64,000 bases of DNA. Origin: Hyperoplus lanceolatus. Its lineage: Eukaryota; Chordata; Actinopteri; Uranoscopiformes; Ammodytidae. Within the stretch, counting starts at the first letter, position 1. Each line of letters begins with the position of its first letter. Both the position numbers and the translations under genes were made by a program. The notes beneath the pieces were generated by a model, which did no database searches, was not told the origin of the DNA, and saw nothing but the letters and a program-made list of their open reading frames with translations. Below are positions 1-46,253 of the stretch, piece after piece. The DNA lies in the NCBI GenBank assembly GCA_026929865.2, contig CM049410.1:22845001-22909000 (forward strand), in the 5' to 3' direction.

Positions 1-1492
1 AAACACAAATCTTTTTTTAGTGAAGTAGTCCCACTGTTTGCCCCATTTAGATTTGTTTTAACATGCATACATTTTAGACAGTGATGATTATGGATAACAT
101 AATCGAATTAGCATTCTAAAGGTCTGGGACAGTACGTACTTGCTGCTTCACACAAATGGCATTTGTACTACTTTACAGCAACTTGCTTCTGAAACAAGAA
201 ATGACCACATAAAAACACATCCTCGCACAATACATTACACTCAGGAGTGTTGCTGCGTCAGCCCTGTTTGGTTGACAGTTCCAAAGACCATTTACTGGTG
301 TTGGGATTTACTCCTACTTTATGCTTCTGTTAAATTCCCCTTTGTTTAAACACTTAACATTGTTTTGTCCACTTCATACACTTTCTCTTTACAATGCTTG
401 AATCCATTCTGCATAGACACAGACAGAGCACTGTAGCCGCTACCCTGCTAACATTGCTGTGCAGACACACTGTTAGTCCCGAAAACTATTAAAGTAATGT
501 ACCAACATCTGTGTCCACTTGCAAACAATAGTGCAACGACCCAAAATCTAATAAACGAAATATAACAAAACCAAAAATGTCATAACTGATCAATAATGTA
601 ACAAAATGCTGAGCCCAAAACGTAATACATATTTTCCGATAATGTATCAACGTACTGTATTACACTATGGGTCAGTTAACACAGTATTGAGCTAGTGAAA
701 TATGTTTGTCCTAATAGTGAAATAATTGTATCACATTAAAGAGTGAATGAATCAATTATGGATTAAAGGCTAATTGCTTCAATGTAGAGTGTTGTAAAAA
801 TCATTTGTTTCATAGATATAATGTAATTCAAGGCTCATATTGTTACATACACAAATGCTGCCACTCTAGGCCTCATAACACTTTGTCCAAATATTCTAGT
901 TAGCAGACCACGTAGCCCAAGATACAGTTGTTTGAGGTTTTCAGTTGGAGAGGAAAGCGTGGTGAGGAGAAGTGACAGGCAAAAAAAAAATCCCTCAGTT
1001 CACTTCTGCTGTTATGGCATTTTTTTGTGACATGGGGAGGACATGTGTAGGTTATTCATTATAATTCATGTTATGAGCGATTTTTCAAAAGGACATCATT
1101 TTAGACAATTTTTGCACATCAGCTTTACAGTTGCATCACACATGTTCTAATTACCTTTTGTGAACATACAAGTCCCTCAAATGGAGGTCCAATCAACTGG
1201 GCCAGTGTGCTATTTAAGTTAAGTTTATATGTGACTATTAGCATTGCAGAACTGTTCTATTAGCTGCTCGACTTCTGACAAAGACCCAAATTCAACCCCA
1301 AATCAACCTCACGGACACTTCTAAATTTAAGATCTGAACTCGACCTGAAACCCAAAGCTTCTGTACATCTTATAAAAATCTAAATGTGCACATACACACA
1401 CTGTGAAAACAGGCTTTGTCAGCTGAATCGATTGAATTTTGAACAGCTGTTAAGAGTGTTTGACAGACGGACAGACAGCCCCGGCACTGACC

Positions 1493-1525
<33 letters not shown>

Positions 1526-2206
1526 CCAGTTCACAAATGCATTAGTAGTATAGGTCACTGCTCAAAGTCATTTCTCTGACTCTCAACTTATCTCACTGAA
1601 CACTGATGTGGACAGAGCAGGCCGACAGGAGGCACAGTGCAGATGGAGATGACGATAGCAAGCTGTCCATGTGTACAATGCTCCTTTGAATTACAATGAG
1701 TCAGTCCAGTACTTTGTACAATGTGTATTAATTCACATTTAGCTTTTAAATACTACATTGCTTGGTTGGCATTTGTAATTTTTCTGTAATGTAATATTAC
1801 AGATTCAAAGCTGGCATGATGGATACAATTCTTAGTAAATAGAAAATATTTCAGCTCAGGACAGCAGCTTCATTCAGCATATACTATTCCAGACTTGCTA
1901 GGACAAAAGTTAATATATTCGGTCAGATAAAGGCTAGTATGAAGCAGCTATAGGAAGTGATAGCCCATATATAACCTTGCAAGCTACAATACACCCTGCA
2001 GCTTGTGGGCATCCAAGCTAGAGAGCCTTTTTCAGCCTGTGCCCACTCAACTTCCCCCTCAATAGTCTGGCAAATGGATTGAAACACTGGTCCATCCTGG
2101 AAACATGGCTAGATTAACCCCAAGGGGACTCTGGGGCATACACCCTGTGGGGGGACCCAATACTGTCCTCGCTCATTGCTCCCACTGTCTGTCTATGTAT
2201 TCAGTC
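1..2206. other. AT-rich intergenic DNA
   Basis: I see no convincing exon, RNA gene or complete mobile element here. The only distinct feature is a short TG run at about 1493-1519. The open frames are short and lack splice-site support or recognisable domains. Confidence 0.5.
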
Positions 2207-2211
2207 AACGT

Positions 2212-2564
2212 TTAAAGGGATAGTTCAGTATTTTTGAAATGGGGTTGTATGAGGTACTCATGCCTAATTAGTCAGATACCTTTAATTTTTGCACTTTTGT
2301 CAAGCGTAGTTCGGCCATGTATTAGACTACTACACCAACTTGTGCCGGTGCACTGCAGCGTATCAGTCAGTAAAACAATCCTACATTTCATGTACAATTC
2401 AACGAATAGTTATTTTTTAGGTAAACATTTATATAGGTGGCAAAATAAAAGCTGTTTTTTGGCCGGACTTATTTTTTCAGTGCACACACACTACGGACAG
2501 GGAGCGGACTGTGAGTAGATTTTTTGTTGATTTGGACAAAAAGTGTTTTGGATTATGCCTTTAA
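2212..2564. mobile_element. Probable MITE with TTAAAGG ends
   Basis: The left edge reads TTAAAGGGATAGTTC and the right edge reads as its partial inverse (TTATGCCTTTAA), so about 7 to 9 bases form terminal inverted repeats. Start sequences like this are common in short non-autonomous fish DNA transposons. The interior has no coding capacity I recognise. Family assignment is inference, and the short terminal repeats make the exact ends uncertain. Confidence 0.45.
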
Positions 2565-3810
2565 CTAATGAGATCTCACTTCCTCTCACCATCTTTGTTT
2601 GGATAAGGAAAATGACTGGTTCTTTGTTTGTAAGTTTGTATTATTATTGTGTATTATTTGTTTTGGGATTTGTTTTCAGAAATAATTAAAAATCCAAATT
2701 GTCAGACTCAGGCTACTGTTCTTTATTTCAAGAAATCCTGGTAGAGTCGTTTTACCACCTGGATTACTAAACATTTTCCGCTCTGCAGTATAAAAAGTAT
2801 TTTTAAACAAGTTGTATTCCAAGTTGTGGCATTGTCTCTTTCTGAATAAGATGGCAGCCCGCCAGCTCACTGGAAATTGCAACTTGGGAACCTTTTTATC
2901 ATTCAGTTTATGAAACATCTGTTGGTTGTCTTTAAGGTTTCTGAAAATACATTAGGAGCCAGGATAGGCTACAGTAACCGTGTTTAACCCTCTTCTGGGT
3001 TTTTCAACCATTGCTGGTTAGGCTATGTTAAAGAATCTGATGGATACCTCTGTGACTGGCATGCATTGCTAGAACATGGTAGCCCAGAACTGGTTAATTG
3101 ATGCTATTTCTAACCATGTAGAATAGAAACAATGTGTTCTCTCATGCCAAATGAAACGACGCAATCATCCCTATAATTTGCCACGCTGTATTCCAGTAAA
3201 ACCGACAATACCTGAACGCAACACGTGCATCTAAATGCTCTGTATCAGCTTTGTTCAAACCTGGCCACTCATCGATAGGCTAATCATTTGTTTCCCTGTA
3301 CTAGATGTTGTCGTCAGGTCTGAGAATAACCGCGGTTGAGAGACGGCCCCTTAATCATGATGTTCCTGGAACGCAACACGGCATAGCCCGCAACTGTGGG
3401 ACAGGTTTCCATCGGGCCGATCGAGCTCGGATATATACATGGTTCTGTTTCACATTATTCGTGTAATGTTCAGGTAGGTTATAAGGACCATTACAGTCTA
3501 TTTGTCCGCTATCCCTCGTCTAATATTCATTGCAGCGTAGGCTACCGCTCAGCCTCCCCCTAACAGCATCCACCGCTGCTGCGCAACCAAAACATCCCAG
3601 CCTGACCCGCTTACTAACAGTCCAACCTCGTTTATCACCGGTAAAAACCAGGCTTTCAACGGACACAATCGTAGATACGGTCACATTTCAGCAGCGCATT
3701 TACAATAGGTAGTTTTATAATAATAAGACGGTGGAGCGCCGGTTTACTTACGTCTCTGTGGAAAAGCCATGATGGTGCTGATGAGGAGGGTCGACATGAC
3801 TGGCATCAGC

Positions 3811-3812
<2 letters not shown>
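2565..3812. other. Intergenic, locally CpG-containing
   Basis: No gene could be built. CpG dinucleotides become more frequent from about 3300 to 3770. At 3770-3752 on the minus strand a short ATG-led segment is followed by a good splice donor (GTAAGT), but no downstream exon could be linked to it (see findings). Confidence 0.4.

Positions 3813-3900
<88 letters not shown>
3813..3900. repeat. (TG)44 microsatellite
   Basis: An uninterrupted run of 44 TG units. Long perfect dinucleotide runs like this are usually length-polymorphic. Confidence 0.97.
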
Positions 3901-3903
<3 letters not shown>

Positions 3904-6900
3904 ACCTCCCCCCTTTTGACATAGCCTACAACCAGAAGACCACATGACTTATTTTTCTACTTACCGAATCTTTGTTTTTTTTCCTATACTTTATTGTAGG
4001 AGCAAAATTAAGTCATCATCTTAAAATGTTATCGTTCATATTTACAGCATCCTACGATATAGTTTTAGTGCAAAAATGATAATGAGCAAAAAGAAGAAAA
4101 CTATATACACATAAACACATAGACTAAACTGTATGGAAATATATACACAAGCATGTACATACATATAAACATAGGCTACACATATAGATGAAGAAAATAA
4201 TAAAATATATAAATTGAATAGTTGAATTAACCTTTGTTTTAAGGAGACATTCAGGTGAAGATAAATGTAAATTTTTGTATTTATTTTATTTAACTTTTAT
4301 TTATCCTCGAGAGACCAATTGAGGGGTGACCCTCATTTACAATGACGTCGAGATAATAATAAATAAATAATAAATAATAATAAAAGCTACAGCTAAGAGA
4401 TAGGTTTGATGGTTACAGATGATCCATCAATCAGAAGCTGAGTAACATCTAATGAATGATCAGCTCTCTAGAAGTCACCCAGATGTGTAAACAATTCCAC
4501 ATTTCATTTATTGACTAAAATCATTTTTTAGTTAAAACTATTTCAGATAGGCTGGACTATATATAGCTGCATGGAATTACCCAGCATTCTATAATTATAG
4601 TATATTATTATATAGGCTACTGTATATTATCCTTCATCTCTATAAGCATGGTCTCATCTCCCATCCCCATCTCCTTTGTTTGCCACATAGACAAAAACTT
4701 TTCAATCTGATCCCTCCATCTCAACTGGAATTAAAAAAAGATATATTCCATTTGGAGCAATTTTGTTTTCTAAAACTGCATTCTCTGTATCTCCTCTGTG
4801 AAAAGGAGATAGGAACTGGGCTCATATGATAATTCCCCTGCATCCTTTATCTTTTTTTTTTAAATTCTGATACAGACAGCGTTTAGCCTATACTGAAAGA
4901 TACATTTAATTATATTAAGAATGCAGTGTGATACAAGGTCAAAGCTTACTTACTTATTGGTGTAGCCTGTACAATTGACAATCAGTTGTACAGACAGTGC
5001 CATCTATAGGAATGGATATATATGGGTTGTTTGGATATGAGGGATCTGTTTTGTGATGCTGTCCAACTAGTGTTATTGGATGGACATTTAAAGCCACTAT
5101 GAGTAACATGGCACGTTGGCGTCCCCTTTGGACAAAAGCGGTAGTATTTTTACGACGCCCGCTGTCGCAAAGCTGTTTTCTAGCTTGTGCCAGGCGCGTG
5201 AGTGTGAACTGAGAAGGGAGCAATATAGTGCATGTCCGTGTGTTGAAAGTGTGAGGACTCTTTTCGGCTCAGTGAGAGTGGTTTTGACACTGCATGAACT
5301 AATGCCAGTCACTGCCACACGCACCTGATTGCAATGAGTTGATGCAGCAGTGTCACCTAACTACTCTCTCTCACGGAGCTGAAAGATTACGTGTCCGACT
5401 CCTCACAGAAAGCGAATGAACGATAGACGGCAGTTAGTATGGATCACGATGAGGTAATGTGTTTATGTTGTTGTAAATAATTACTATTTCAGATAATGGT
5501 TATCTGATTATGGTGTATCAGTCATTATGACGACAAATAACTGTATCAAACAAGGCTCCCGCTCCCCTTCCCTCACCTGGAGGGATAGGCTTCTCAATTC
5601 ACGTTGCTGCGCCAGACTGAAATCTGCAACCAATACGGATATGTGACCATAGAGCTTGCACAAGCGAACTTAAAATCGAACTGGGTGTGCGACCAGACCA
5701 AAAGCAGTAATAAAAACTATTTAAAAACGTCTTTCTTTGCACTGATGGTCTCGTTTGCTGTTAAAGGTAATTTATGATTATGAGAGGAAACATGAGGCTG
5801 TTTAAAAGATATTTAAATGTTACTCGTTGCTGCTTTAATGACATTTTATTTCGTTGCAAAAGTTGTTTACAAATTTACTCAGAGTACATTGTAACTTGCT
5901 TAATTTTTTTTACTTAAATAATTTTTTTCAAACAAGTTTTTAACTTCAGCTTGAGAATGATTTCTGATAATTTACTCAACTCGGTCCTTCACGCTTACAT
6001 TAAATTTGAAACTGATCCGATACTTAATCAAATGTAGACCCAGTTTTACTTAAGGGATTCCTGAGAACTGTTAGACTTGTGGTATTTAAGCCAAACTAAA
6101 ACATTATGATCAATTCATGCCACCGTTATGAAAAAATATTCATTTTACACTTTTTTTTTTTCAATTACACTTTTTTCTGTTCCTGTAAATGAGCATAAAT
6201 GACTGGGTAAATGCAGTGTATTCTGAGTACAGCCATGTCAGGGCTGATTAAATCCAGGCTTCTCAATACTGTCAACCTCCAGAAGAAAATGAATTGGCTA
6301 ATTGGGCACCATGAAGGAAGAAGCTTAGAAACGTAACAGGTGACAGTTTCGTTTTATTACAGCAGGAAAAAAAAAAAAAACACATATTGCTGAGAAGTTA
6401 TCACACATGTACTGTCAAGATGTCATTCCTATAAAAAAAAATTGTTAATAAAAATAACTGTTGAATTCCTATTGGTCCGTGGGGGTGTAACTCACAAAAA
6501 CAGTTCAGTGATCATAAAACCATCTCAGACACAGAGGCACACCTTGATATGCTGTCCAGGGATTAAGGTGTGCCTAAAACCTCTCTCTCTGATTTGAAGA
6601 TCTGACAAACAGAAAATGTTCCTGTCAGTGTGTATGTGTGTGTGTGTGTGTGTGCTCATAGCTTTGTGCGTGTGTGTGTGTCTGTGTGTGTGACCCTCAA
6701 CACGTACTGTCATTGTTCCATTCCGTGTGCCTGCATGTCTGTGACTATATCTCTTGTTTGATTACATCTGTATGTGCGTATTGTGGTGCCTTGTTGTGTG
6801 TGTGCATGATTCTTATCCATGTGTATGTGGGTGTCACTTGACATGTCCTTAGATTGAGTACTTGTCATTGTGGTGCATAATAATCGAGCAGCTGTGTCTG

Positions 6901-16288: not shown

Positions 16289-19200
16289 ATGAAGTTTGTC
16301 CGCTCTCTGATGAAGACTGCAGCGCTGGCCAACGTGCCTAAACACATCGACCACTTCGCCAAGTTCTCGCCTTCTCCTTTGTCGATGAAGCAGTTCTTGG
16401 ATTTCGGTGAGTTGTATTTTGTAGCCATATTTATCCTCTTTTTATTTATCATATGTAGGTGTAGGCTAAAGGTATGGCAGTCTGACTTATGGTAGAGCAG
16501 GGAAGCGTATTTATTTATTTAATTCAAGCCTCCCTTGTAATAGGCTATGACTAATAGTTCACTTAACAGGTACATCTAAAAGGCAACTTTCACCTGCAAC
16601 CCGAAGCCTGGTTTATAAAGGTGCACTTTGCTATGCTTGGCTACTTGAGTTAGTGGTGCTCATTATAGGGTAGCCTAAGCTTTAATCGGTGGCATACGAT
16701 TAATTAAGTTGTAGCCTACTAGTTTAATAGTTATATAATTTTGACATGTTGATGGGACGATGTTGCTGTGTTTTTGAGTCAAGAGGAAGAATCAAAATCC
16801 CCCTCAGTAATTACAGTATTAAATGAGGTCACTCTTTAACCTTGATCCACTAACATGTCCTTGTAAGGCTCTCGAACACATCCCGCAGGTTTTTATCAGT
16901 GAATAGAGTTAGCTGTTGAGGATAACAATTTTCTACAAAACAACCCCCTTTTCCCCTTTTAACTGCAATTCCCATAGCTGTATATCAAACTGAGCCACTT
17001 TTCAATTTGCTGATTGAGACCTTGATTGTAGTCATTTCATTTGTTTGGGAATTCTTCTCGTAACCTTTTCCATTCTGTTGTGTTGTCCAAGGTACCACCA
17101 ATGCCTGTGAACGCACCTCGTTTGGTTTCCTGCGTCAGGAGCTTCCTGTCCGTCTGTCTAACATCATGAAGGAGATCAACCTGCTGCCAGACAGACTGCT
17201 GGGCACGCCCTCCGTACGCCTCGTCCAGAGCTGGTAAGCTGCATTTCTATGCTATATACTGCAGCTGAACATAACAATAATATAGTTTGCATGTAGTAGG
17301 CACACAATTGGGACATACTTTTACTTATTTATTTCATCATAACATTGCGCCTTGATCTTGCCTCTTGCATATATATCCCTCTTGTCCCTGGTTGTTTTCA
17401 TACGGAGAGCTCCGTCGATGTGGCGTCACTTCCGGTGTGCACTGGATTGTGGGTCAGAATCGGCCAAATAGCATGCTGATTTCAACACCAAAACATTTTT
17501 TCCACCGGATGTAGTAGGCATCCAGGTAATCAGTGACTCTGGAGAACGCTTGTTGTCAAAATCCCTTATTTTTTTTCAAAATCAGTGAATATCTCCACAA
17601 TCAGTGAATATGACAAAGTCATTTTGGCAACAAGCATTCTCAAAATGCACTGTCTCCACCTTTTTAAAAGTGCCCTCATGTTTTGTTTTGGTCTACTGTG
17701 CTGAGTACAATATGTCCTCAAAGTCACATTCAAAGTAAAGGATATTTCCTCTCTGAGATGGTCCTGTTTTCTCTCCTAGCACAGCCTCCCACACTCCGCT
17801 GTTTGAGAGCATACAGTTATGTGACCCTTCACACGTTTGAAACACTACCAAAAACTTTCTTTCCGAGTTGTGCCCTCGTTTCAAAGAGTTGCAAAGATTG
17901 CTATGAATAGCAGGCTGACAATGTGGGCACGGGATATTATCAGAGATTACATTACAGAGCAGTAGGGAGAGAGGGAGGGAGGGAGAGAGGGAGGGAGGAA
18001 GGGAGGGAGGGAGGGAGGGAGGGGGGGGGACTGAACTTTGTCCCAGTTCCTCCACTTAGCCCTACCTTCCTCCTTCTGCCCGCGTGTTGTTGCAGCTGAA
18101 GTGGACAGCGTGTTCAAAACAACAGCCTGACTAACTGCTCATTGACACACTCATAAACACTTCCAAGTGTCATCTGAAACAATACACCAAGTATGAAAGA
18201 TACTGAAAGATTGACCTTTGACTTCATTGTCAGTGACTTGCCACATCAACTCACAGTATATCACTTGCTACTTGTTTAAAGAACATCAACGTACTGTATA
18301 TACAGTGGTTTTCTTTGCACTTGTTTTGGCCAGATTGCGTCTGTGTTTTGCAATCTCCTGACAGCACGCTGCAATTCTTTTCTCCAGGAACTTTCTAGGA
18401 ATTTGTCAAAGAAAATGTTTTTTGACCTTGGTGGTTAGGTTTGTTCCTCCTCTTCTTTTTTGGGGGAAAACATAACTACTAATATAGATTTTTAAAGGTG
18501 CACTTGGTAACTTTGGGTGTGTCGGAGAAGTGAACATTTTCTAAGGTATATTCTCATAACTGAATAAACCAACTTTCCACACAGGAAAATTGGATCCCTG
18601 GAATATTGTTTAAAGATAGAAAACGACCAGAAAAAGTTACTTTTTCACTGTTATTGTTTACAGCTGCAGGGCCCACAGTTTTGTCCACAAACAAATCTAA
18701 CATTTGATTCCATGTGCCTCAAAATTAATTACTTTTGATTTAAATTGATTGCTTGCTCAATACTTAGAATAACATGTAGAGAAAATATTTTTGTAAACTA
18801 ACTGCAGGCTCTGCAAATGGAAAAAAAAATCCCCCTCCCTTGAAACTGTATAGTGCACCTTTAATGTCATGGAGAATACTAGACGAGATTAGTAGGCTAA
18901 AGGACACTAGGATGGAAATGTGTGTATTTATGGAACACTTATGATGAAGTGTGTGGAGCCAAGTGTGGTATCCCTCTCTGAATCAGATGACCCTCAGGTC
19001 TGCTGACATGGCCCATCATCAAACAGGGAACTGATACAATGCAAACTCTATTTAACCTGGAGGATTCTTACTTTTAAGAACACATCAAATACATTACACA
19101 GTCAAATATGCATTGTATATTTATTTACACAATATCATCTTTTATTTCACCTCATCAAAGGGGGGCATCTCCATGTAATTAATACAAATACTGACTCAAA

Positions 19201-22200: not shown

Positions 22201-25200
22201 TGACAACTATGTACAGTCATTCAGGAAGAAAAAAATTCTGACTCATACTGAAGGCCGATAAAAGTGATAAGTGTTCTTAAAGATACTTTGATTGTGAAAC
22301 AAGAGGACCTAAAACCCAGGTTAAAGAAACTTATTTTATGACTTGTTTTAAACCAGAAAAGTTGTGGCCAGGTGCACAGCTACATTTTTACCCGTTGGCA
22401 TTTCTAATTATATATTTTAGTAAATAGCGAAACCTGGCTGTTCTAGTGTAATATTGTCTTGTCGGTTTAGAGCGTTGACACTCATTTTTCATTTGTTCCC
22501 TTCCTTAGCCAACGACTTCAAAGAGCCCATCCATATCTCTTACATCCCATCTCACCTGTACCACATGCTCTTTGAACTCTTTAAGGTAATTAATAACAGT
22601 GCATCGTCTGCAGACAGAGATAATTGAAACTATATACAATAGTATAGGAGCCTCCTTGATAAGGTTAAAGGTTTGTAGACTATACTGAACCTCCTTCAAA
22701 TGTACATATAAACCTGAATCTGTGATATTTTGGTCCCAATAGCTCACACAGTTTACTGTTTTCTTTGTGTAGAACGCCATGAGAGCAACCATCGAGGAGC
22801 ACGAGGCCAGCAGGACCCTACCACCCATAGAAGTCATGGTCGCTCTGGGTGGAGAGGACCTGACAGTCAAGGTGAGACGCTTCTTTGACAAATACAGAAA
22901 TTACAACTATTTAATCATCACATCTTCAGTCAACATGAATGCAACGGCCCAGAATCCGTTGGTGACATTAACTTGATATTAGACGTGGTGTCAGCGATTC
23001 AGGAGAACGCTTGTTGTCAAAATCACTCTCGGTCAAATTCAGTGAATGTCTCCTCACAATCCGCTACCTGTTTGCACTGTGTGTGCGCGTTGTGAACAAA
23101 AATCGAGTGTTAAAAACAGCCTAGGCTCCGTGAACGAGTATGTAAACAAAGAGTATGTAAACAAATGACCCCCCCCCCTCCCCCAGTAGCAACATGCTGT
23201 TTACAGAGCCTAGGCTGTGTGGCTTAACACTGAATTTCTGTTTGTGCACACACAGTACATACAGGTAGTGGATCATGAGGAGATATTCAATGACTTTGAC
23301 AAAAAAAAAGTTTTTTGACAACAAGCCACCAGTTATTGTAACAGGGTTCACCGGATGCTTGCGCAACTTCAACAGATTCAATTTAGTATAGCGACAATAT
23401 TACCAGTGCGCCGCATTCGCTTCAATAACAAAAATGAAACATGCAAGAAGGGTCTTTTATGCCAAATATTTTACAACAGCAAATCCAACCAGCATATTAA
23501 GAAGAAGTGTAGTTGAGAGTTGGTACCCATATTATGCTTAGAAAGCGGCATCAACACTGAAAAACAGAATCACCTACTGCCCAAGTCCCAGCAATATAGG
23601 CTACAATGACCATAACAAACAAACAAAATGGTTTAAAACTCCACAAAATAACTTTATCTCTTCACAGATAGACACAGCCAAAAGTAACACTCACCCATCA
23701 CTTCCGTGATGTGCCATGTTCCTTCACAGGTTTAAAAAGCAGACACGCCAGCAACATACCGGAAACTTGTTCCGCTCGGTGCTAGCTGTTAGCCAGTCAT
23801 AGCATCCTAGTGAAGTGCCACAAAAAAACGTTGTCAGCCCATCCAGCTTAGGGGTAGTATTCCTGCTTTTGGGGCGATTGTGGCTCAGTTGGTAGAGCGG
23901 GTCGGCCGATGATCAAAGGGTTGGCGGTTCGATCCCCGCCCTGCCCTGTGTCATAGTTGTTGTGTCCTTGGGCAAGACACTTCACCCACGTTGCCTCGTG
24001 TGAATGTCGATAGTTAGCCTGCTATCGGTGTATGAATGTGTGTGTGAATGGTAACGTGTAAATGGGAACAGGTCTCCCTTGCAAAAGAGTCTTCGGACTC
24101 AATGGGATATACCTGTATAAATAAAGGTTAAAAAAAAAACTATATCTAAACTATGTTAAACGATCATTTAAATAACCACACTAGCTCGGCAACAGGATCA
24201 GTAGGTTGTGTGAAGGCGATGGCCATAGTAATTCACTAAAAATGCTAATAGCCCGCCGAACGTTCAAACTTCGCTGATGACATCACAGGGGGCTAGTGGT
24301 GAAATTTTGCTGAGCCTTGGGGGTGGGCTGTCACTACACATTAAAATCTGATTGGATGATGAGACACGTCAGTCAAAGTTATTATCCAATAGGAGACAAT
24401 GTTTCAATGAAAGGCTAGAAATACTTATACTGCAGGTCCCACTGCTCCACATAGCTGTGATGCGTTTAGATGACATATGCCTGTGAAATCCAGCTCAGCC
24501 TCACAAAAAATAACCATACTCCAAAAAAAAAAGAATTATTATTGTAACATAGGGGAAGGTGGGGTGATTTGTGCAACTTTTTACTCAAAGTGATTTTAAA
24601 GTGAGGCCTTGACAGTTATGTCTCCAACTCAAATATGTACATATATTTCAGGATGTTGTGCATCCCTGGCAATAAAAACTTTGGATCTGGAATAAACTGT
24701 TTAAGAAATATAGCTTTCGGAAAAAAGTTGTCTTGACGCACAAATCACCCCACTACGTGGGGTGATTTGTGCGTCATTGTGTCACAATGACAAAGTCACC
24801 ATCATCATCTTTCTGGCCATCTGAACTCTCATCAGTGGTGTCGTTAAGTGGAATTAAGATGTCACTCTCTTCTGAGCTACTGTAGACAATCACTTTCTTT
24901 TGGTGACCAGCGATACAGCCATGCCACTGGCACAACTCTCAGAAATGTACTTTGCACTAGTTGCTCCGTGCTTGTGGAACCAACTGCCACCTGACAAATG
25001 TGATTCCCCCTACATTTCTGCCTTTAAATCAAGGCTCAAAACCCATATGTACACCCTGGTGTTTCCTCCCCATTAACTATCTTACCTCTGCACTACTATC
25101 TGTGTTTATGTGGATGTATGGGCTTTACGTCTTTTATTTTGGTTATTGTTATTGTACCTTCATTGTTTACCTACTGAATGCACTATGTACAGCACTTTGG

Positions 25201-26177
25201 ACAGTGCAAACTGTCATAAATGTGCTTTTATAAATACATTTTACTTACTTACTTACTTATAACTCACCCAGGCCCTTGCGCACAAATCACCCCATCCCCA
25301 GAATTTTGGATAATTTTAGCAATTTAGGGTTGACATTGTGCTAACTATATAGACTCAAAGTGTAGCATACCAAAGCACTAAAACATGTGTCAAATGTTTT
25401 CAAACGTGTCTATAATTGTTCAGACACAATAATCAAAAAACCTTGATCATGGAAATTTTACTTTGAAAGGCAAAACACAGTTTTTTGAGCTTAAATGTGC
25501 TTATATCTTATTCCTTGTGTCTCCCTTCTTTACAGGATGAGTCAAATGGATGGCTCTTCTTAAATATGTGGTCACATTTCCAATTTCTTCCACGGTTTTC
25601 TAGAAACAAGGGGTTTTGCAACTTCCAAAATGCACAAATCACCCCACCTTCCCCTACTGACATTTTTTTATTAAATTCAGACACATTTAAAAAAAGTGAT
25701 TACTCCACTTTAAACTGAGCTTTCTAGCATGTCACAAGTTGAAATAACAAAGGAGGTTCTATCTGAATGCCCCTAAAATAGAAACAAGGTTGGCTAATCT
25801 AAAACCTTCTTTAATCCAAAGCTAATCCTCCCTGTACTAAAGCCTGACTATTTAAAAAAAGAGCTATGTAGAAGAAAAGAGTGCAGGAATGCTTACTGTT
25901 TGTTCCCATTCGGAAATGAGGCCTTTTCACCCTTTGCCCAGTTGTTCTAGTTCCCCCGTCTCACCTTGGTTCAGCTGCTTAACTAGGTTACATAAAGCTC
26001 TGATAATCATTAACGAGTCATCATCCGCCCAGATACACGACCCTTTCATTGACGTCATTGCAGCAGCGCCCTCTGTATTCAGACCTGATAGACTCTGTGT
26101 AATATTATTTGATAGCTGCCACCTTTGCACTCCAATGCCTGCCAACTGAATAGGGTTATTACGAATGAAGTTACACA

Positions 26178-26276
<99 letters not shown>

Positions 26277-27260
26277 TCCCAGGTCATCCTGCCAATGTTT
26301 TATGATACCGTGGTTACATAATTGAAGGTGTTCTCACCAAACTGAGACATCCACCTCTTCATAAAGATTAAAGACATTGCTCATGGCTGCTGATGTTAAT
26401 CTCTCCTACACATCTCTTCCCCCTCCCCCCCCCCAGATGAGTGACAGAGGTGGTGGTGTCCCCTTCAGGAAGACAGAGCGTCTGTTCAGCTACATGTACT
26501 CCACTGCTCCTAGTCCCAACATGGGAGACAAGCACAGAGCCCCACTGGTGAGCAACGGAGACACACACAAATATTCAAACACAATCTGTACGTTTACATG
26601 ACGTTAGAGAATATCGATTTATTGTGTTAGTACGACGGAAACCAAACTATTAAAATGCATGTAAACATCTTAGTCGGACTGATAATGTACTAAATGGATT
26701 TTCTCAAAGTAGCTCTTCTGTGTATGTAAACTTACTTCATATTAATACACGAGATGAGCTAATATGTCTGTGTCTGTGTCTGTGTGTGTGTATGTGCAGG
26801 CAGGGTTTGGCTATGGTCTGCCCATCTCTCGACTCTATGCTCGCTACTTCCAGGGAGACATCCATCTCTACTCTATGGAGGGTTACGGCACTGAAGCAGT
26901 CATACACCTGAAGGTAACATTTACACATATACACACACACACACACATGCAACAACTAGTACTAGATATATGATGACTGGGTTTAATAATAAAATCAGGG
27001 TTTCACTCTTAAAGGCAAGACATTGCAGGCAAAAAAATAGAGTTTTTTGTCTATTTTGCTTCCATTTGGAAAACAAACCCAATATCTACATTAATGTCTG
27101 TCATGTGCCTCTCTAGGCCTTGTCTACGGACTCTGTGGAGAGGCTGCCAGTTTTCAACAAGACGGCTCTGCGCCACTACAAACTGAGTTTAGAGGCAGAC
27201 GATTGGTGCGTTCCCTCCAAGGAGCCGCTGGACCTGGCCATATACCGCGCCGCCAAGTGA
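16289..27260 (+). CDS. pdk2: Pyruvate dehydrogenase kinase, PDK2-like
   Basis: A mitochondrial-matrix kinase that phosphorylates the E1-alpha subunit of the pyruvate dehydrogenase complex and so restrains pyruvate oxidation. Eleven exons join in frame: 16289-16406, 17092-17233, 20655-20726, 20851-21038, 21274-21363, 21926-22003, 22509-22585, 22773-22871, 26437-26547, 26800-26913 and 27117-27260. They encode 410 residues (human PDK2 has 407), and all introns are GT-AG. Family landmarks are intact: [15 protein letters not shown] (residues 26-40), [14 protein letters not shown] with His123, the N-box ELFKNAMRAT with Glu252 and Asn256, the G1 box DRGGGVP (Asp291), the G2 box GFGYGLP (327-333), and the C-terminal DW motif (Asp392-Trp393). 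Residues such as [27 protein letters not shown] and MVALGGEDL favour PDK2 over PDK1, 3 or 4. Two pdk2 paralogues may exist in teleosts and I cannot tell which this is. Introns 2 and 8 are long and rich in transposons. Confidence 0.95.
17289..17525 (-). mobile_element. Diverged copy of the 419-bp GGTTGCATTCC MITE
   Basis: Read in reverse, this stretch matches the element at 30946-31364 over landmarks such as CACAATCCAGTGTGCAC, GCAAGAGGCAAGATCAAGGC and the block around GTATGTCCCAAT. The terminal repeats are lost or too diverged to see. It lies in pdk2 intron 2 and abuts another MITE. Confidence 0.65.
17526..17665. mobile_element. Short MITE of the GTCAGCGATTC family
   Basis: The left end, TCAGTGACTCTGGAGAACGC followed by TTGTTGTCAAAATC, and the right end, TTGGCAACAAGCATTCTC...CTGTCTCCACC, are inverted relatives. 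The interior is very short (about 60 bases), so this is an internally deleted member of the family at 22978 and 56053. Confidence 0.65.
17700..18050. repeat. Copy A of a direct duplication in pdk2 intron 2
   Basis: Shares a core with copy B at 19429-19746 from GTCACATTCAAAGTAA through CTGAGATGGTC, CACAGCCTCCCACACTCC and ATATTATCAGAGATTACATT to CTGAACTTTGTCCCAGTT. I estimate high-80s percent identity by eye. It is in the same orientation, about 1.7 kb upstream of copy B. I recognise no coding or transposon motif. It ends in a GGGA-rich tract. Confidence 0.8.
17961..18028. repeat. (GGGA)n-rich purine tract
   Basis: GAGAGAGGGAGGGAGGG-type purine repeat ending in a G run, inside copy A. Copy B carries a much shorter version, so the tract expanded after the duplication or contracted in B. 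On the plus strand it could form G-quadruplex structure in the pdk2 pre-mRNA (inference). Confidence 0.85.
18492..18864. mobile_element. MITE with TTAAAGGTGCAC ends
   Basis: A perfect 12-bp terminal inverted repeat, TTAAAGGTGCAC at the left and GTGCACCTTTAA at the right, bounds about 370 bases with no coding potential. The TTAA-like outer bases could be part of a target duplication. Located in pdk2 intron 2. Confidence 0.6.
19429..19746. repeat. Copy B of the intron-2 duplication, flanked by 28-bp repeats
   Basis: Homologous to 17700-18050 in direct orientation. It is bracketed exactly by a perfect 28-bp direct repeat at 19401-19428 and 19747-19774, which includes GACCACCTTCTGGATG. Copy A has no such bracket, so copy B looks like the derived, inserted copy. 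See findings. Confidence 0.8.
20297..20640 (-). mobile_element. Non-LTR retrotransposon 3' fragment
   Basis: CAGAAATACTTTATTGATTC followed by CCCGGGGGAAATTTACTTTG is the reverse of a common fish LINE 3' end, and an AT-rich body follows. It lies immediately upstream of pdk2 exon 3. Only the start is recognisable; the far boundary is approximate. Confidence 0.55.
22978..23320. mobile_element. Truncated MITE of the GTCAGCGATTC family
   Basis: Begins GGTGTCAGCGATTCAGGAGA and shares an interior (GAGCCTAGGCTGTGTG, CAGGTAGTGGATC, GGAGATATTCA) with the copy at 56053. Its right end stops at TTTTGACAACAAGC, just short of the expected GTTCTCCAGAATCGC. There it meets the left arm of the inverted duplication, which therefore cut into it or joined at it. 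It lies in pdk2 intron 8. Confidence 0.7.
23868..24130 (+). mobile_element. tRNA-derived SINE
   Basis: The tRNA-like head carries an A box (TGGCTCAGTTGGTAGAGCG) and a B box (GGCGGTTCGATCCCCGCC). A typical fish SINE body follows (TGTCCTTGGGCAAGACACTT), ending ATAAAGGTTAAAAAAAAAAC. It is absent from the matching position of the right arm, which reads TTCCTGTCAACTATATC on the same strand. No target duplication is evident and two or three target bases are missing, which is unusual for standard SINE insertion. Confidence 0.88.
24735..24775. repeat. Perfect 19-bp palindrome inside the TIR transposon
   Basis: GACGCACAAATCACCCCAC, a 3-base spacer (TAC), then its exact reverse complement. The arms repeat the subterminal core GGGGTGATTTGTGC that also ends the element, and another copy lies at about 25280. 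These repeats may be transposase-binding sites (inference). Confidence 0.9.
24936..25262 (+). mobile_element. LINE 3' end nested in the TIR transposon
   Basis: The frame reads [17 protein letters not shown] and [14 protein letters not shown]. This is the 'LWNsLP...[10 protein letters not shown]' tail at the C-terminus of fish L2/CR1-like reverse transcriptase ORFs. Downstream are GCACTTTGGACAGTGC and a TTAC tandem tail ending at 25262, as expected for a 5'-truncated LINE copy. It lies wholly inside the 24552-25654 element. Confidence 0.75.
26181..26273. repeat. (CA)46 microsatellite in pdk2 intron 8
   Basis: Uninterrupted CA run 163 bases upstream of exon 9. CA repeats near acceptors can influence splicing through hnRNP L binding; that is family knowledge and is not shown here. 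Confidence 0.97.
27009..27060. mobile_element. Possible solo end of the TTAA element family
   Basis: TTAAAGGCAAGACATTGCAG followed by GCAAAAAAATAGAGTTTTTTG parallels the reversed right end of the element at 29781-30445 (TTAAGGTGAGACACTGCAGA...). It is diverged and lies in pdk2 intron 10. Confidence 0.4.
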
Positions 27261-28350
27261 TGTCAAACATGACTCCTGATACAAAGACTTGTAAAGGCTG
27301 ATAGTAAAATGCCTTTTTAAAGGTTAGGGGCCTTGCTGGTGGGGCCCTCGTGGGACCAGAAGTATTAGCTCCCGGAGGTGGACGGGAGAAGTGGTCAAGC
27401 CGAGCGCTGTCTTCCTAAAATGGTCTCAGAACTTCCTTGATTGGAGCGAGCTTCCTCTTCCCGTTATCTCCTCCTGCTTTCTTTACATGTGTTCTATAGA
27501 AGAAGAAGAACAAAGGGTGACTGATTCTGAATAGAATGCTATACAGTGGTAGAAATACAACATTCTCTTGAGCAATTATGGGATCGACAGAGAATTTTTT
27601 TCTACAGCTGCTTGAGCTAAACGTTAGCCTCACAGATAAGCTAACCCCAAATACAACGACATCCAGGTGCCTAACGTTAACAGTGGTCAAGATTGAAACA
27701 AAGATATAAATGACTTAATAGTTCAACTTTTAACAGCTGTTACGCAGTCAGCTGTCTTGTCATTTACACTCAAAAAGAACAAACGGCTCGCTAGCTGTAT
27801 GTACTTTGCCAAGTCTAGAACAAAGAACAGTGCATTTCACCCAGGTGTTAGTAAGCTAGTTTGCTAAGGATTTTCTTTCACCGTAGCTTCTTAGCCATTC
27901 AGGAGGTTTTTTCTCTTGAGAGCGTGTGAACATTGACTGAGATGTGCCTTTTTGCCCTTTTGCTACAAGAAACTCTCCCCCTCTTGAATTGCGGTTTTGT
28001 GGCCTGATTTAGGAACACACATAATGTTCTGCTGCTTGGTTACTGATAAAGAACAAGGATTAAGGACGGTTTGGTTAGCCATTATTAGAACAGCCTGTAA
28101 CACTGTCACAATGCAAGTGTGTCTTCTATGGACGAGTTGTCCATTAATTAGCTTTTGGTAAAGTTGTGGAACTCTATTTTTTTTTTTGAAAATGGTACAT
28201 GCGTGATATATACTGTATATTATGATTTACTGTGTTATGTCCTTTGATAGGTCTATATTACATTGTGTATTTGAAGTGAACATTTCATATTGGAGGACTT
28301 CTATTTTTATAAAGAAATTATTGGAAAATAAACTTTCCTGAAATTAATTT
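27261..28350 (+). other. pdk2: pdk2 3' untranslated region
   Basis: About 1.1 kb without coding potential follows the pdk2 stop. It ends at the first strong AATAAA (28327-28332), which sits in AT-rich sequence just before a long TG tract. The exact end is inferred. Confidence 0.6.
28327..28332 (+). terminator. pdk2: Polyadenylation signal of pdk2
   Basis: Canonical AATAAA in the context GGAAAATAAACTTTCCTG, about 1.07 kb past the stop. It is followed within 50 bases by a G/T-rich (TG)n tract that could act as the downstream element. Confidence 0.6.
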
Positions 28351-28376
28351 GATGTATGACCTCATTACTATTATTA

Positions 28377-29776
<1,400 letters not shown>

Positions 29777-29780
29777 TTAA

Positions 29781-30445
29781 GGTGAGACACTGGAGGTGAA
29801 TTGGGTACATTTCTAAGATATCATGAAACTTTGCCATTAAAAAAATGACTTTTTTGTATTGCCAATTTTTCTGAAATGTTTTAATAAATATGAAAATTTG
29901 GCAATATTTTACTCATTATGTGTAGATTTGCATCTCTAGATGTTGAATAAAGCCAGAATAAAAATCTTCATTTCATTTTGACAACAAAGTGTCCATAGTT
30001 TTTTCAGAAAAGATTTGGGATTCAGCCTTTTTTAATTATTTTATAAATCAAAAAATACTATGTACAGGCCTTCAAAATACATTTTAAGAACAAAATGTAT
30101 CATTAATCAAACTATTTACAACACATGAACAATTCATTCTGTAATAACCTTCAGAATAGTGCTAAGAATGATTATGGAAAATGCTTTAGAAGTTGAGAAT
30201 CTTGGTTCAGTGTATTGAAAAAAATGAATGTTTAGATAATGGCCGTGAAAGATGGTTGTATAGGAGGAACATGCAGACACAAACAGACAAGGTTTAGTCA
30301 AATAAACACCTTAATGTACATTTTTCACCTTTTAATTGTACAAGTATGAAAGACGACATGTTAGGGAAATAGATAAAATAGATAAAAAATCAGAAAATTG
30401 ACCCATGCTCGAGAAACACTATTTTTCTGTCTGCAGTGTCTCACC
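29781..30445. mobile_element. 665-bp MITE in a TTAA target
   Basis: Terminal inverted repeats GGTGAGACACTG (left) and CAGTGTCTCACC (right) are flanked by TTAA at 29777-29780 and 30446-30449. TTAA duplications mark the piggyBac and Kolobok superfamilies. No transposase frame remains, so the element is non-autonomous and the superfamily is undecided. Confidence 0.75.
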
Positions 30446-30756
30446 TTAATCATGCTCTCTTTTCAGTCCTATAGTTATTTGCTGAGCAGCGACCTCATGT
30501 GGTAAGGTTTACAAATTACAACTAGTACATGGGTATTATTAGTTCACACCTTTTACATAACTGCATTGATTGTATCCATTAAAATGCTTTTCAAGTGACA
30601 AAAAAAGCGAAAGAAATTACTATTTGTTTTTTTATTATTATTTGTAACCACCAATAATATTTGACTCTTTCTTTCGCTCTTATTGAACTATTGTGGTGGG
30701 CCGTCAAAAACAAAATAATAAATATATTTTTTAGTTTAAAATTAGATTAATTCGTG

Positions 30757-32173
30757 TTTAAATGTGTCTGAATTTAATAAAAAAATGTCAGTATGTTACA
30801 ATAATAATTAATTTTTTTTTGGAGTATGGTTATTTTTTGTGAGGCTGAGCTGGATTTCCCAGGCATATGTCATCTAAACGCATCACAGCTATGTGGAGCA
30901 GTGGGACCTGCAGTATAAGTATTGCTAGCCTTTCATTGAAACATTGGTTGCATTCCGAATCGCATACTTTCTAGTAGAAAGTTTCTACTATATAGTATGT
31001 AGAAAAAAGATTTAGGATGTCCCGATTCTTGTGGCCAGATTTAGGATGGTTAGAAGTACCCGGATGTCCTACTTCATGGGGCCAAGATTGTTAGTGTTGA
31101 AAAGTGCATCCTATTTGGGCGATTCTGACCCACAATCCAGTGTGCACGTGAAGTGACGTCACATCGACGAAGCTTCCATATGAAAACAAACGGGGATGCG
31201 ACGGATATAAAAGCAAGAGGCAAGATCAAGGCGCAATGTTATGACGAAATAAGAGAGTAAAGTATGTCCCAATAGTATGCCTACTGCATCCTAACTAGAT
31301 TCTTTTTATCATCGGATGTATGTAGAATAGAAAAAAGAAAGAGTATGCGATTCGGAATGCAACCATTGTCTCCTATTGGATAATAACTTTGACTGACGTG
31401 TCTCATCATCCAATCAGATTTTAATGTGTAGTGACAGCCCACCCCCAAGGCTCAGCAAAATTTCACCGCTAGCCCCCCGTGATGTCATCAGCGAAGTTTG
31501 AACGTTCGGCGGGCTATTAGCATTTTTAGTGAATTACTATGGCCATCGCCTTCACACAACCTACTCGATCCTGTTGCCGAGCTAGTGTGGCTATTTAAAT
31601 GATCGTTTAACATAGTTTAGATATAGTTGACAGGAATACTACCCCTAAGCTGGATGGGCTGACAACGTTTTTTTGTGGCACTTCACTAGGATGCTATGAC
31701 TGGCTAACAGCTAGCACCGAGCGGAACAAGTTACCGGTATGTTGCTAGCGTGTCTGCTTTTTAAACCTGTGAAGGAACATGGCACATCACGGAAGTGATG
31801 GGTGAGTGTTACTTTTGGCTTTGTCTATCTGTGAAGAGATAACGTTATTTTGTGGAGTTTTAAACCATTTTGTTTGTTTGTTATGGTCATTGTAGCCTAT
31901 ATTGCTGGGACTTGGGCAGTAGGTGATTCTGTTTTTCAGTGTTGATGCCGCTTTCTAAGCATAATATGGGTACCAACTCTCAACTACACTTCTTCTTAAT
32001 ATGCTGGTTGGATTTACTGTTGTAAAACTTGGCATAAAAGACCCTTCTTGCATGTTTAATTTTTGTTATTGAAGCGAATGCGGCGCACTGGTAATATTGT
32101 CGCTATACTAAATTGAATCTGTTGAAGTTGCGCAAGCATCCGGTGAACCCTGTTACAATAACTGGATGCTTGT
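30757..32173. repeat. Right arm of the ~1-kb inverted duplication
   Basis: Reverse-complement match of 23321-25691 after removing the 419-bp MITE. In this orientation it looks like the 5' end of a gene or an autonomous element: inverted and direct CCAAT motifs at about 31373 and 31410, a CRE-like GTGATGTCATCAGCG at about 31480, then ATGGCACATCACGGAAGTGA at 31779 ending at a consensus splice donor (GG|GTGAGT) at 31802. About 2.4 kb downstream of pdk2. Confidence 0.9.
30946..31364. mobile_element. 419-bp MITE with 23-bp TIRs and ATT target duplication
   Basis: Perfect 23-bp terminal repeats start GGTTGCATTCCGAATCGCAT. The flanks are ATT on both sides (30943-30945 and 31365-31367), and the left arm gives the empty site (GAAACATTGTCTCC in this orientation). 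A 3-bp duplication fits PIF/Harbinger-like insertion, though ATT is not the usual TWA, so this is inference. The interior contains a perfect CRE palindrome, TGACGTCA, at about 31154. Confidence 0.88.
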
Positions 32174-32548
32174 TTTGTATCGTGTTATGCGTTTACAAAC
32201 AGTTGTCTAGTGACATGAAATATCTGATGGTGATGGTGCAGCTATCTGGTGTGGGATAAACAACAGTGGTGTGCGCTGCTCTGTGGTTGTTGAAGATCAA
32301 CTGTCAAGCTCTTCATGTTATGCATTAGTGTGTATATACTGTGATTTTAGCCTATAATTTGTATGTGGCTGTGTTGGTTGTATCGTCACCTGACGTGTGC
32401 GTTTCTCAGTGTTTGGGGGGGGGGGGGGGGTCGTTGGTCTGAGTTTGCTACTGAAGGCCCTGACTGAAAGCCAGTACGCTACTGGATATGCGAAGAGCGA
32501 AATTTTGATGTAACTTCTGTAAATTGACAAATAAAGTAACTTAACTTA
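32174..32548 (+). other. Possible 3' end of the element carrying the right arm
   Basis: Directly downstream of the right arm. It includes a G run at about 32415 and ends CAAATAAAGTAACTTAACTT, resembling a retroelement or gene 3' terminus with AATAAA. It is not present beside the left arm. The link to the arm is inference. Confidence 0.3.

Positions 32549-43571: not shown

Positions 43572-43645
<74 letters not shown>
43572..43645. repeat. (CA)37 microsatellite
   Basis: Perfect CA run. Confidence 0.96.
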
Positions 43646-43647
<2 letters not shown>

Positions 43648-46253
43648 TACAGTCTGCAGAAGTCCACTGGGGGCTGCTCAGTCCTCTGATGTAACACATA
43701 TTTTGATGACCCAACAGACATTGAGGCCAGGAACTCAAAGTGAAAATCAAAAATATCTCATATTAGGTCAGAGTTAGAACCAGAGGACTGCAGCCCACCA
43801 GGATTTGGGACCAAAAAAATCCAGACAAAGAACTGAGAGCGGAACATCTCCCTTGGTATGTCCTGCACAGACCAGACCTCGGCCAAATAACAAGAAGATT
43901 TATTTTCTATCTTTTTGTTTCATCCCACTTCTGTCAGACGGGCAGGCAGCGTTTGCTGAATCAGGTCATTTATTTATCTAATTTATTTCACTTGGTTTGT
44001 GTTTGCACCTGTGTGGGATAAAAACAAGCCCAAGGTGTTATTTTTTGTGAAGAGTGCTGTTTGACCCAGGTGTGGTACACACAATAGCTACACCAAAGAA
44101 AAAAAAAGGTAGGAAGGAAATAGAGCGCGGCACAAAAAAACACAAGAACACACACAACATAAAACAAAATGTCACACCAAACACAGAGCCACACACAGGT
44201 GAGGGAACACAACACAAGGAGCAGAAGAAATAAAACAGTTCACAGGAAACAGTGAGGGACACATTCTTACATGTAGAAGCGACTCTGCTTCTTTTTCTTT
44301 CTTTCCTCCTCCTCCTCATCACCACACCTTTCTGTCGTCCCCCAAACTTTGACGCTGCTCGCTTGACAATCCACTCAGAACACATCATCATTTCACAGCA
44401 CATTTCTCCCCCGTCTACAATACATCACTCCAGTCTGTTTCATTCTTTTAGAAAAGTCCGTTCCTGTCTTCCTCCTCGGTGAAATCCAGTGTTTGGCCAA
44501 TGTTTTTTTTTTGTATTTTTTTCAGGTGCTAAGGTGCTCCAAATTTCACTCAAATCCTTTTTTTGGTTTTTGCTGTGAGAGACTCTGGGGGAGGGGGCAT
44601 GGATGGTGTGTTGGGGGGTGGGGGTTAAGTCCCGCAGAGAGAGGGACGGTTATTGAGAAATGGTGGAGAGACAAGGGGACTTCACAAGGTGAAGACAGGA
44701 AGCACACAGTTTGACGAGGAAAGCAAAACAGCATTTTTTCAATGAAGTAAAGGGCAAGGGCCACAAAACAGCACAGAAAAAGAGAGGAACAGCTCAACTT
44801 TGTTTTCTTGTCACTCCCTTTTTTATGTACACATTGCATCTTTGAGCACACATGGGTGAACAGGAACACGGGGGGGGGGCAAAGAAAATATTGAGATAAA
44901 GATACCTGAGTTGTGAATGGATGGAGAGGAGGAAAAGAGATGTTGGCAACATGGGGCAGAAGGCTAGCATTCATTTGGATTCAAGTGGTTGACTTCTGAG
45001 GAGTACCTCTGCAGTGAGGCATGGCAATGCAACTTCTTCAAAGATGTAATGGGGCAAAAATCTGACGGACACAGGAGCCTGCCATCCGTATAAATGGATT
45101 TGTAGAAACAAATGCATTTGAGCAGGTATAAATCCTGTTTCCTTTTCACACAACAAAATGTTTTCAAAAGCTGGCCCTAGACCTGTGTAGATTCTCCACT
45201 CATCATGGCCAAATTAGGGTGGTGTTAATGTGCTCATTAATTAGACCAACGCTGGGATACCAAAGTAGGTGACCGACCCAGGAGACACCAGAAGTTCAAC
45301 GGCCATTATTGTATGATGATTTGATTAAGTGCACATCTATTTGGTAATGCAAATACAATTGTGTTACATCCAATACACTCCAAAATTGTCATCATAATTT
45401 TGTTAAAGGAGGGATAGCTAAAGTTTTTTTATGGTTTGTTTGTAGCCTTAACGTTACTTGGCTAACAAGGTTCTTGCTATAAAGGGGCCCACAGCTCAGA
45501 TTTGTCCCTCAGTCCCCTGGCAGGTTTATCCGGCCCTGGTCCTTATCCTTTACTGGAGGTTGCATTGGACCATTTGCCTTCTCACAATGCAGAGGTATCC
45601 CTTCTTCTGGCCGCAGCACAGTTTAAAAGCAGTTATGAAGAATAGGACAGGACAGGAGTGTATGGAAGGTGATACGGACAAAGTCACAAAGAGAGACAAA
45701 TCAAAACCAATGGACGAGAACATTTTGGTAAGGAGGTACAGTATGTTTGGAGGGAGAAGGGGGGGGTGTCTCCTCTCTCTTGCGGAAGAGGAGTTGAGAC
45801 AATTATGGAAGAAGGTGGATTATTTTTTTGTCATGTCTTAGCATAAATTCACAGTTACTGCTTCTTTTTGCATATATCTGATAAGCGCGGGGCTCTCAGA
45901 ACAGTTCTCTGTGAAAAGAGAAGCAAAAGAAAGAAAGAAAGGAAATCATAAGCTACGATTGTTAATATGTTTTCTTTTTTCTCTTATATCTCTCAAGGTT
46001 GATAAGAAAGCAGCTATACAAGACCTACTACAAACGTAAACCCCTATCCCCTATATCCTGCAAAAATAAACTTTCCCACCCCCGCCCCAGCTCTGTTTAC
46101 AGTACCTAACTTGGTCTCTTCCGACCAATAGCATCGTAGCATTTTGGCATGCATAATGTCAGCCCGCCCCCACCTCTTTCGCATTCAAAGAGGTGAAGTT
46201 TTATTTTTTATTTTTTTGTCCTGCATGCTTTGATAGTGCATATGTATGCGTCT

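Follow-up and report, generated by a model that had tools for sequence, protein, structure and literature searches.

How did two nearly identical stretches of DNA come to lie in opposite orientation around the 3' end of pdk2 in Hyperoplus lanceolatus: by copying within the locus, or by two insertions of the same mobile element? The window analysed is the whole stretch of 64,000 nucleotides (GCA_026929865.2, CM049410.1, positions 22,845,001-22,909,000, forward strand), which contains no N and sits in a 30.6-Mb contig. The gene is identified as pdk2 by its best matches among solved structures, which are PDK2. Intron 8 spans ~22872-26436 (splice sites read by eye), and exons 9-11 follow at 26437-27260 on the + strand, with exon starts, also by eye, at ~26437, ~26800 and ~27117 and the stop codon at 27258-27260. 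These exons lie between the arms in normal orientation, where the initial annotation had placed them, as the PDK2 structure matches and splice sites show, and the assembled exon order of pdk2 is normal. The right arm had been put 2.4 kb beyond the gene; it does lie downstream, but its inner edge is ~3.5 kb past the stop codon, a distance counted from the stop and not from the 3' end of pdk2. A literature search found no title on this locus, although titles alone do not establish it as unpublished.

The inverted repeat of ~1.0 kb at ~98% identity is real. It pairs 23320-25691 with 32174-30757, and 964 of 981 compared columns are identical. The left arm (+ strand) consists of three pieces, numbered here by a 1458-bp reference copy of the family described below (L009): part A at 23320-23865 (reference 322-899), an internal piece before which the 5' part of the element is absent; part B at 24138-24551 (reference ~903-1324); and a final 37 bp at 25655-25691 (reference 1323-1359), after which the 3' end of the element is absent. 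The right arm (30757-32174, - strand) is that portion of the right copy which is common to the left arm, so that the arms have reference positions 322-1359 in common. In inverted alignment, 23320-23865 matches 32174-31631 at 97.99% over 546 columns, 24138-24404 matches 31628-31361 at 98.1% over 268, and 24397-24551 matches 30946-30792 at 97.4% over 155. Beyond the 1.1-kb element of the left arm, the tail at 25655-25691 matches 30793-30757 exactly over its 37 bp. The E value of the longest block is 0.0, which excludes a chance origin of the similarity. The 17 differences (of 981 columns, in reference coordinates) are spread along the arms, with 0 to 5 in each sixth, and the longest exact run is 172 bp. 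Edge to edge, the arms are separated by ~5 kb. Most of the other inverted-repeat matches listed for the window are CA/TG microsatellites, at 26173-26273, 28379-28507, 3813-3902 and 43572-43656.

Three insertions interrupt the arms, distributed as first annotated: a SINE-like insertion and a 1.1-kb element occur only in the left arm, and a MITE, which measures 417 bp, only in the right copy. The 1.1-kb element (24552-25654, + strand) has inverted ends and a TA duplication, and the MITE (30947-31363, - strand) has a CAATG duplication on both sides; each has a clean empty site in the opposite arm. The SINE-like insertion (23866-24137, + strand) is of tRNA type by eye. No clear target duplication is seen at its edges, and the right arm reads TCAA at the point that corresponds to both of them. 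The claim of exact empty sites therefore fails for the SINE, though it stands for the other two insertions. An Rfam search of the whole window gave no match at gathering score. The reference copy carries none of the three insertions, and in most of the family copies listed only a few bases separate the sequences that flank the SINE. These observations argue that all three insertions are later than the duplication, one of the two readings first proposed; the SINE is likely to be so, and for the MITE and the 1.1-kb element the support is good. The MITE itself belongs to a widespread, dispersed family (a genome search with 30942-31360 gave 934 candidates, of which the best 40 were scored), and a relative ~80% identical to it lies at 17244-17528.

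The core of the arms had been taken for pdk2 intron 8 sequence. It is not specific to pdk2: each arm is a piece of a hAT-like transposon that is dispersed in the genome. A search of this species' genome, 806.7 Mb in 527 contigs, with left-arm sequence recovered both arms and places on many contigs. Among the best 40 of 2033 candidates, identity to the left arm is 83-90% for copies that span the 545-base part and 95-96% for two shorter ones; the figure of 2033 is not a copy number, since that query contained the SINE. Two SINE-free queries gave 133 and 151 candidate places, and with the 280-base one of these (best 40 of 151 scored) all other copies are at most 91% identical, against 98% between the arms. 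It had been stated beforehand that many near-identical copies elsewhere would point to two independent insertions. Many copies do exist, as that objection in spirit foresaw, but they are not near-identical.

The family element is ~1.46 kb long, and in copies taken with their flanks the alignment runs from CAGTAGCGTACC to CCCACCACTG. Perfect target duplications of 8 bp accompany 22 of the 23 both-ended copies, the exception being L010, in which 3 of 8 bases agree. The terminal inverted repeat is weak and imperfect, with agreement at 12 of the first 18 end positions. The core belongs to a non-autonomous hAT-like DNA transposon, assigned to the hAT superfamily from features typical of it. No hAT transposase was found in the one long copy scanned (L033). 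This copy, which occupies the same place as L028, is split at 1409-5973 by a 4.6-kb insert, probably a LINE, with a reverse transcriptase match below the Pfam cut-off. The scan found no transposase in the insert, and L033 was rejected as an autonomous parent.

Other readings of the core were also considered. An LTR or retroposed origin, suggested by an A run and by an 11-bp repeat close to each end, was set aside because the genome copies have hAT-type ends. On the - strand, 23700-24400 looks promoter-like by eye, with CCAAT boxes, a CRE-like site and an ATG exon with a GTGAGT donor, all inside the transposon. It was considered whether the core supplies the promoter and first exon of a gene further downstream; a Pfam search of the three + strand frames over 31.6-61.4 kb returned only two matches, both sub-cut-off (DUF3915, E 0.0074; ZrgA, E 0.0035). 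For this reason, and because the core lies within the transposon, that reading was rejected. A plasmid search was unproductive.

Membership of a dispersed family leaves the relationship between the arms to be established. The arms were compared with 58 other copies, picked as the best matches to them (60 rows, 1770 pairs). They share 14 substitutions found in no other copy, the highest count of any pair; the runner-up has 6. The count was 16 when 39 other copies were used, and wider sampling may lower it further. A further 35 states common to the arms occur elsewhere (18 in one or two other copies, 17 in three or more), so part of the likeness reflects a subfamily. The left arm also shares two exclusive states with L050 and two with L032 that are absent from the right arm. 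Both arms carry three deletions, of 22, 10 and 2 bp, that none of the 58 further copies shows, though the region is absent from some of these. A 221-base query spanning two of the deletions found their spacing only in the arms and in none of the other 38 among the best 40 of 133 places, several of which matched only in part. In a midpoint-rooted tree, built from the 55 rows that have 700 bases or more, the arms form a sister clade with support of 100/100, a stem of 0.047 and tips of 0.006 and 0.014, and L029 joins them next (92.6/96). Within the copies sampled, the arms share an exclusive common ancestry that follows insertion. The same tree pairs L045 and L066 (85.6/96), family copies ~29 kb apart on contig C15 between which only the element itself aligned.

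The two copies differ in their ends. The right copy is a near-complete element on the - strand, at 30693-32484, with the MITE inside. It extends 311 bp beyond the outer boundary first annotated, to a 5' terminus at 32484, and inward to 30693, where it stops 2 bp short of the 3' terminus; no second target duplication was found in the 300 bp searched. The left copy holds only reference 322-1359 and falls short of the full element by 321 bp at one end and 99 bp at the other. The best matches to reference 1-321 and 1360-1458 within 18-30 kb have E values of 0.13 or worse, against 2e-120 and 1e-8 for the same two pieces on the right copy. The left arm does not show the two termini and target duplication of a hAT insertion of its own. 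Candidate separate duplications for each arm, of 7 and 9 bp, were rejected, as repeats at least this long occurred in 85 and 12 of 1000 random flank pairs. The 7-bp repeat lies inside the element. The 9-bp repeat in the left flanks is mostly an A run and could hint at an insertion, against local copying. Homology at the junctions is at most short and imperfect.

The exclusive shared substitutions and deletions, together with the lack of both ends on the left, favour local inverted copying: the left arm would have been copied later, in inverted form, from the interior of the right copy rather than being the product of a second insertion, a reading to which we give a probability of roughly 0.8. 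Of the local inverted duplication first proposed, the single copying event survives as the likelier reading, but what was copied would be part of a dispersed transposon and not pdk2 intron. The right copy, whose 5' terminus and family membership are seen directly, would be an old insertion of the non-autonomous hAT-like element downstream of pdk2 that went on to gather mutations of its own. That the arms have private mutations in common, and that the left one has neither transposon end, suggests that an internal slice, reference 322-1359, was then copied, inverted, across the ~5 kb between the facing edges into pdk2 intron 8. With no transposon end on the left, a transposase is unlikely to have moved the slice. 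It was probably copied by template switching during replication or as a patch in the repair of a break; copying from a nearby template would explain why the slice is internal, inverted and close by. The short, imperfect junction homology does not fix the mechanism. The MITE would later have entered the right copy, and the TA-flanked transposon and the SINE the left one; the empty sites speak for this order.

That a rare subfamily outside the sample inserted twice independently, close together by chance or through local hopping, and that the left copy afterwards lost both ends, is an unlikely alternative, though the family is dispersed and several of its copies are without an end. Independent copies can also be as alike as the arms: L061 and L062 are 99.6% alike, on different contigs, but they align over the whole element and have distinct target duplications. 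Only the best 40 of 133 to 2033 candidates were scored in the genome searches, so that a rare sister subfamily could be missed. However, the private deletions occur in no other copy scored or fetched, both left termini would have to be lost, and no 8-bp duplication was found for the left copy.

It is less probable still that two old insertions were homogenised by gene conversion. The arms are close and inverted, with exact runs of up to 172 bp, but conversion would have to span the whole overlap, deletions included, and the differences are scattered with no sharp change; the left ends would, moreover, remain missing. Inverted repeats can confuse assemblers, yet an assembly error is very improbable given 17 differences between the arms in 981 columns and the three different insertions that they bear, in a window without N inside a 30.6-Mb contig.

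Local inverted copying would leave the arms as an ordinary kind of genome scar. The argument that a dispersed element must mean two insertions can mislead, and private mutations and missing ends can expose local copying within a repeat family. The arms could in principle recombine with each other, and inversion of exons 9-11, gene conversion or, on read-through, double-stranded RNA would be the possible consequences first suggested; their effect on pdk2 is probably small. That they still exchange, with exons 9-11 inversion-polymorphic in the population and occasional conversion keeping the arms ~2% apart, seems highly doubtful.

CAGT..ACTG ends and 8-bp target duplications are features of non-autonomous hAT transposons of vertebrates. 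The present family shares both and has more than 100 candidate places, but the left arm has neither end and alone is unlike a transposition product, and no transposase was found in the long copy scanned. Local inverted templated insertions arise by template switching in replication or repair. The left arm resembles them as a nearby slice, inverted and with little junction homology; the event here is old, however, and its mechanism is read from one present-day sequence. Inverted low-copy repeats mediate inversions, and the arms, close, inverted, ~1 kb long and 98% identical, are similar in form, but the assembly shows no inversion and the longest exact run is 172 bp.
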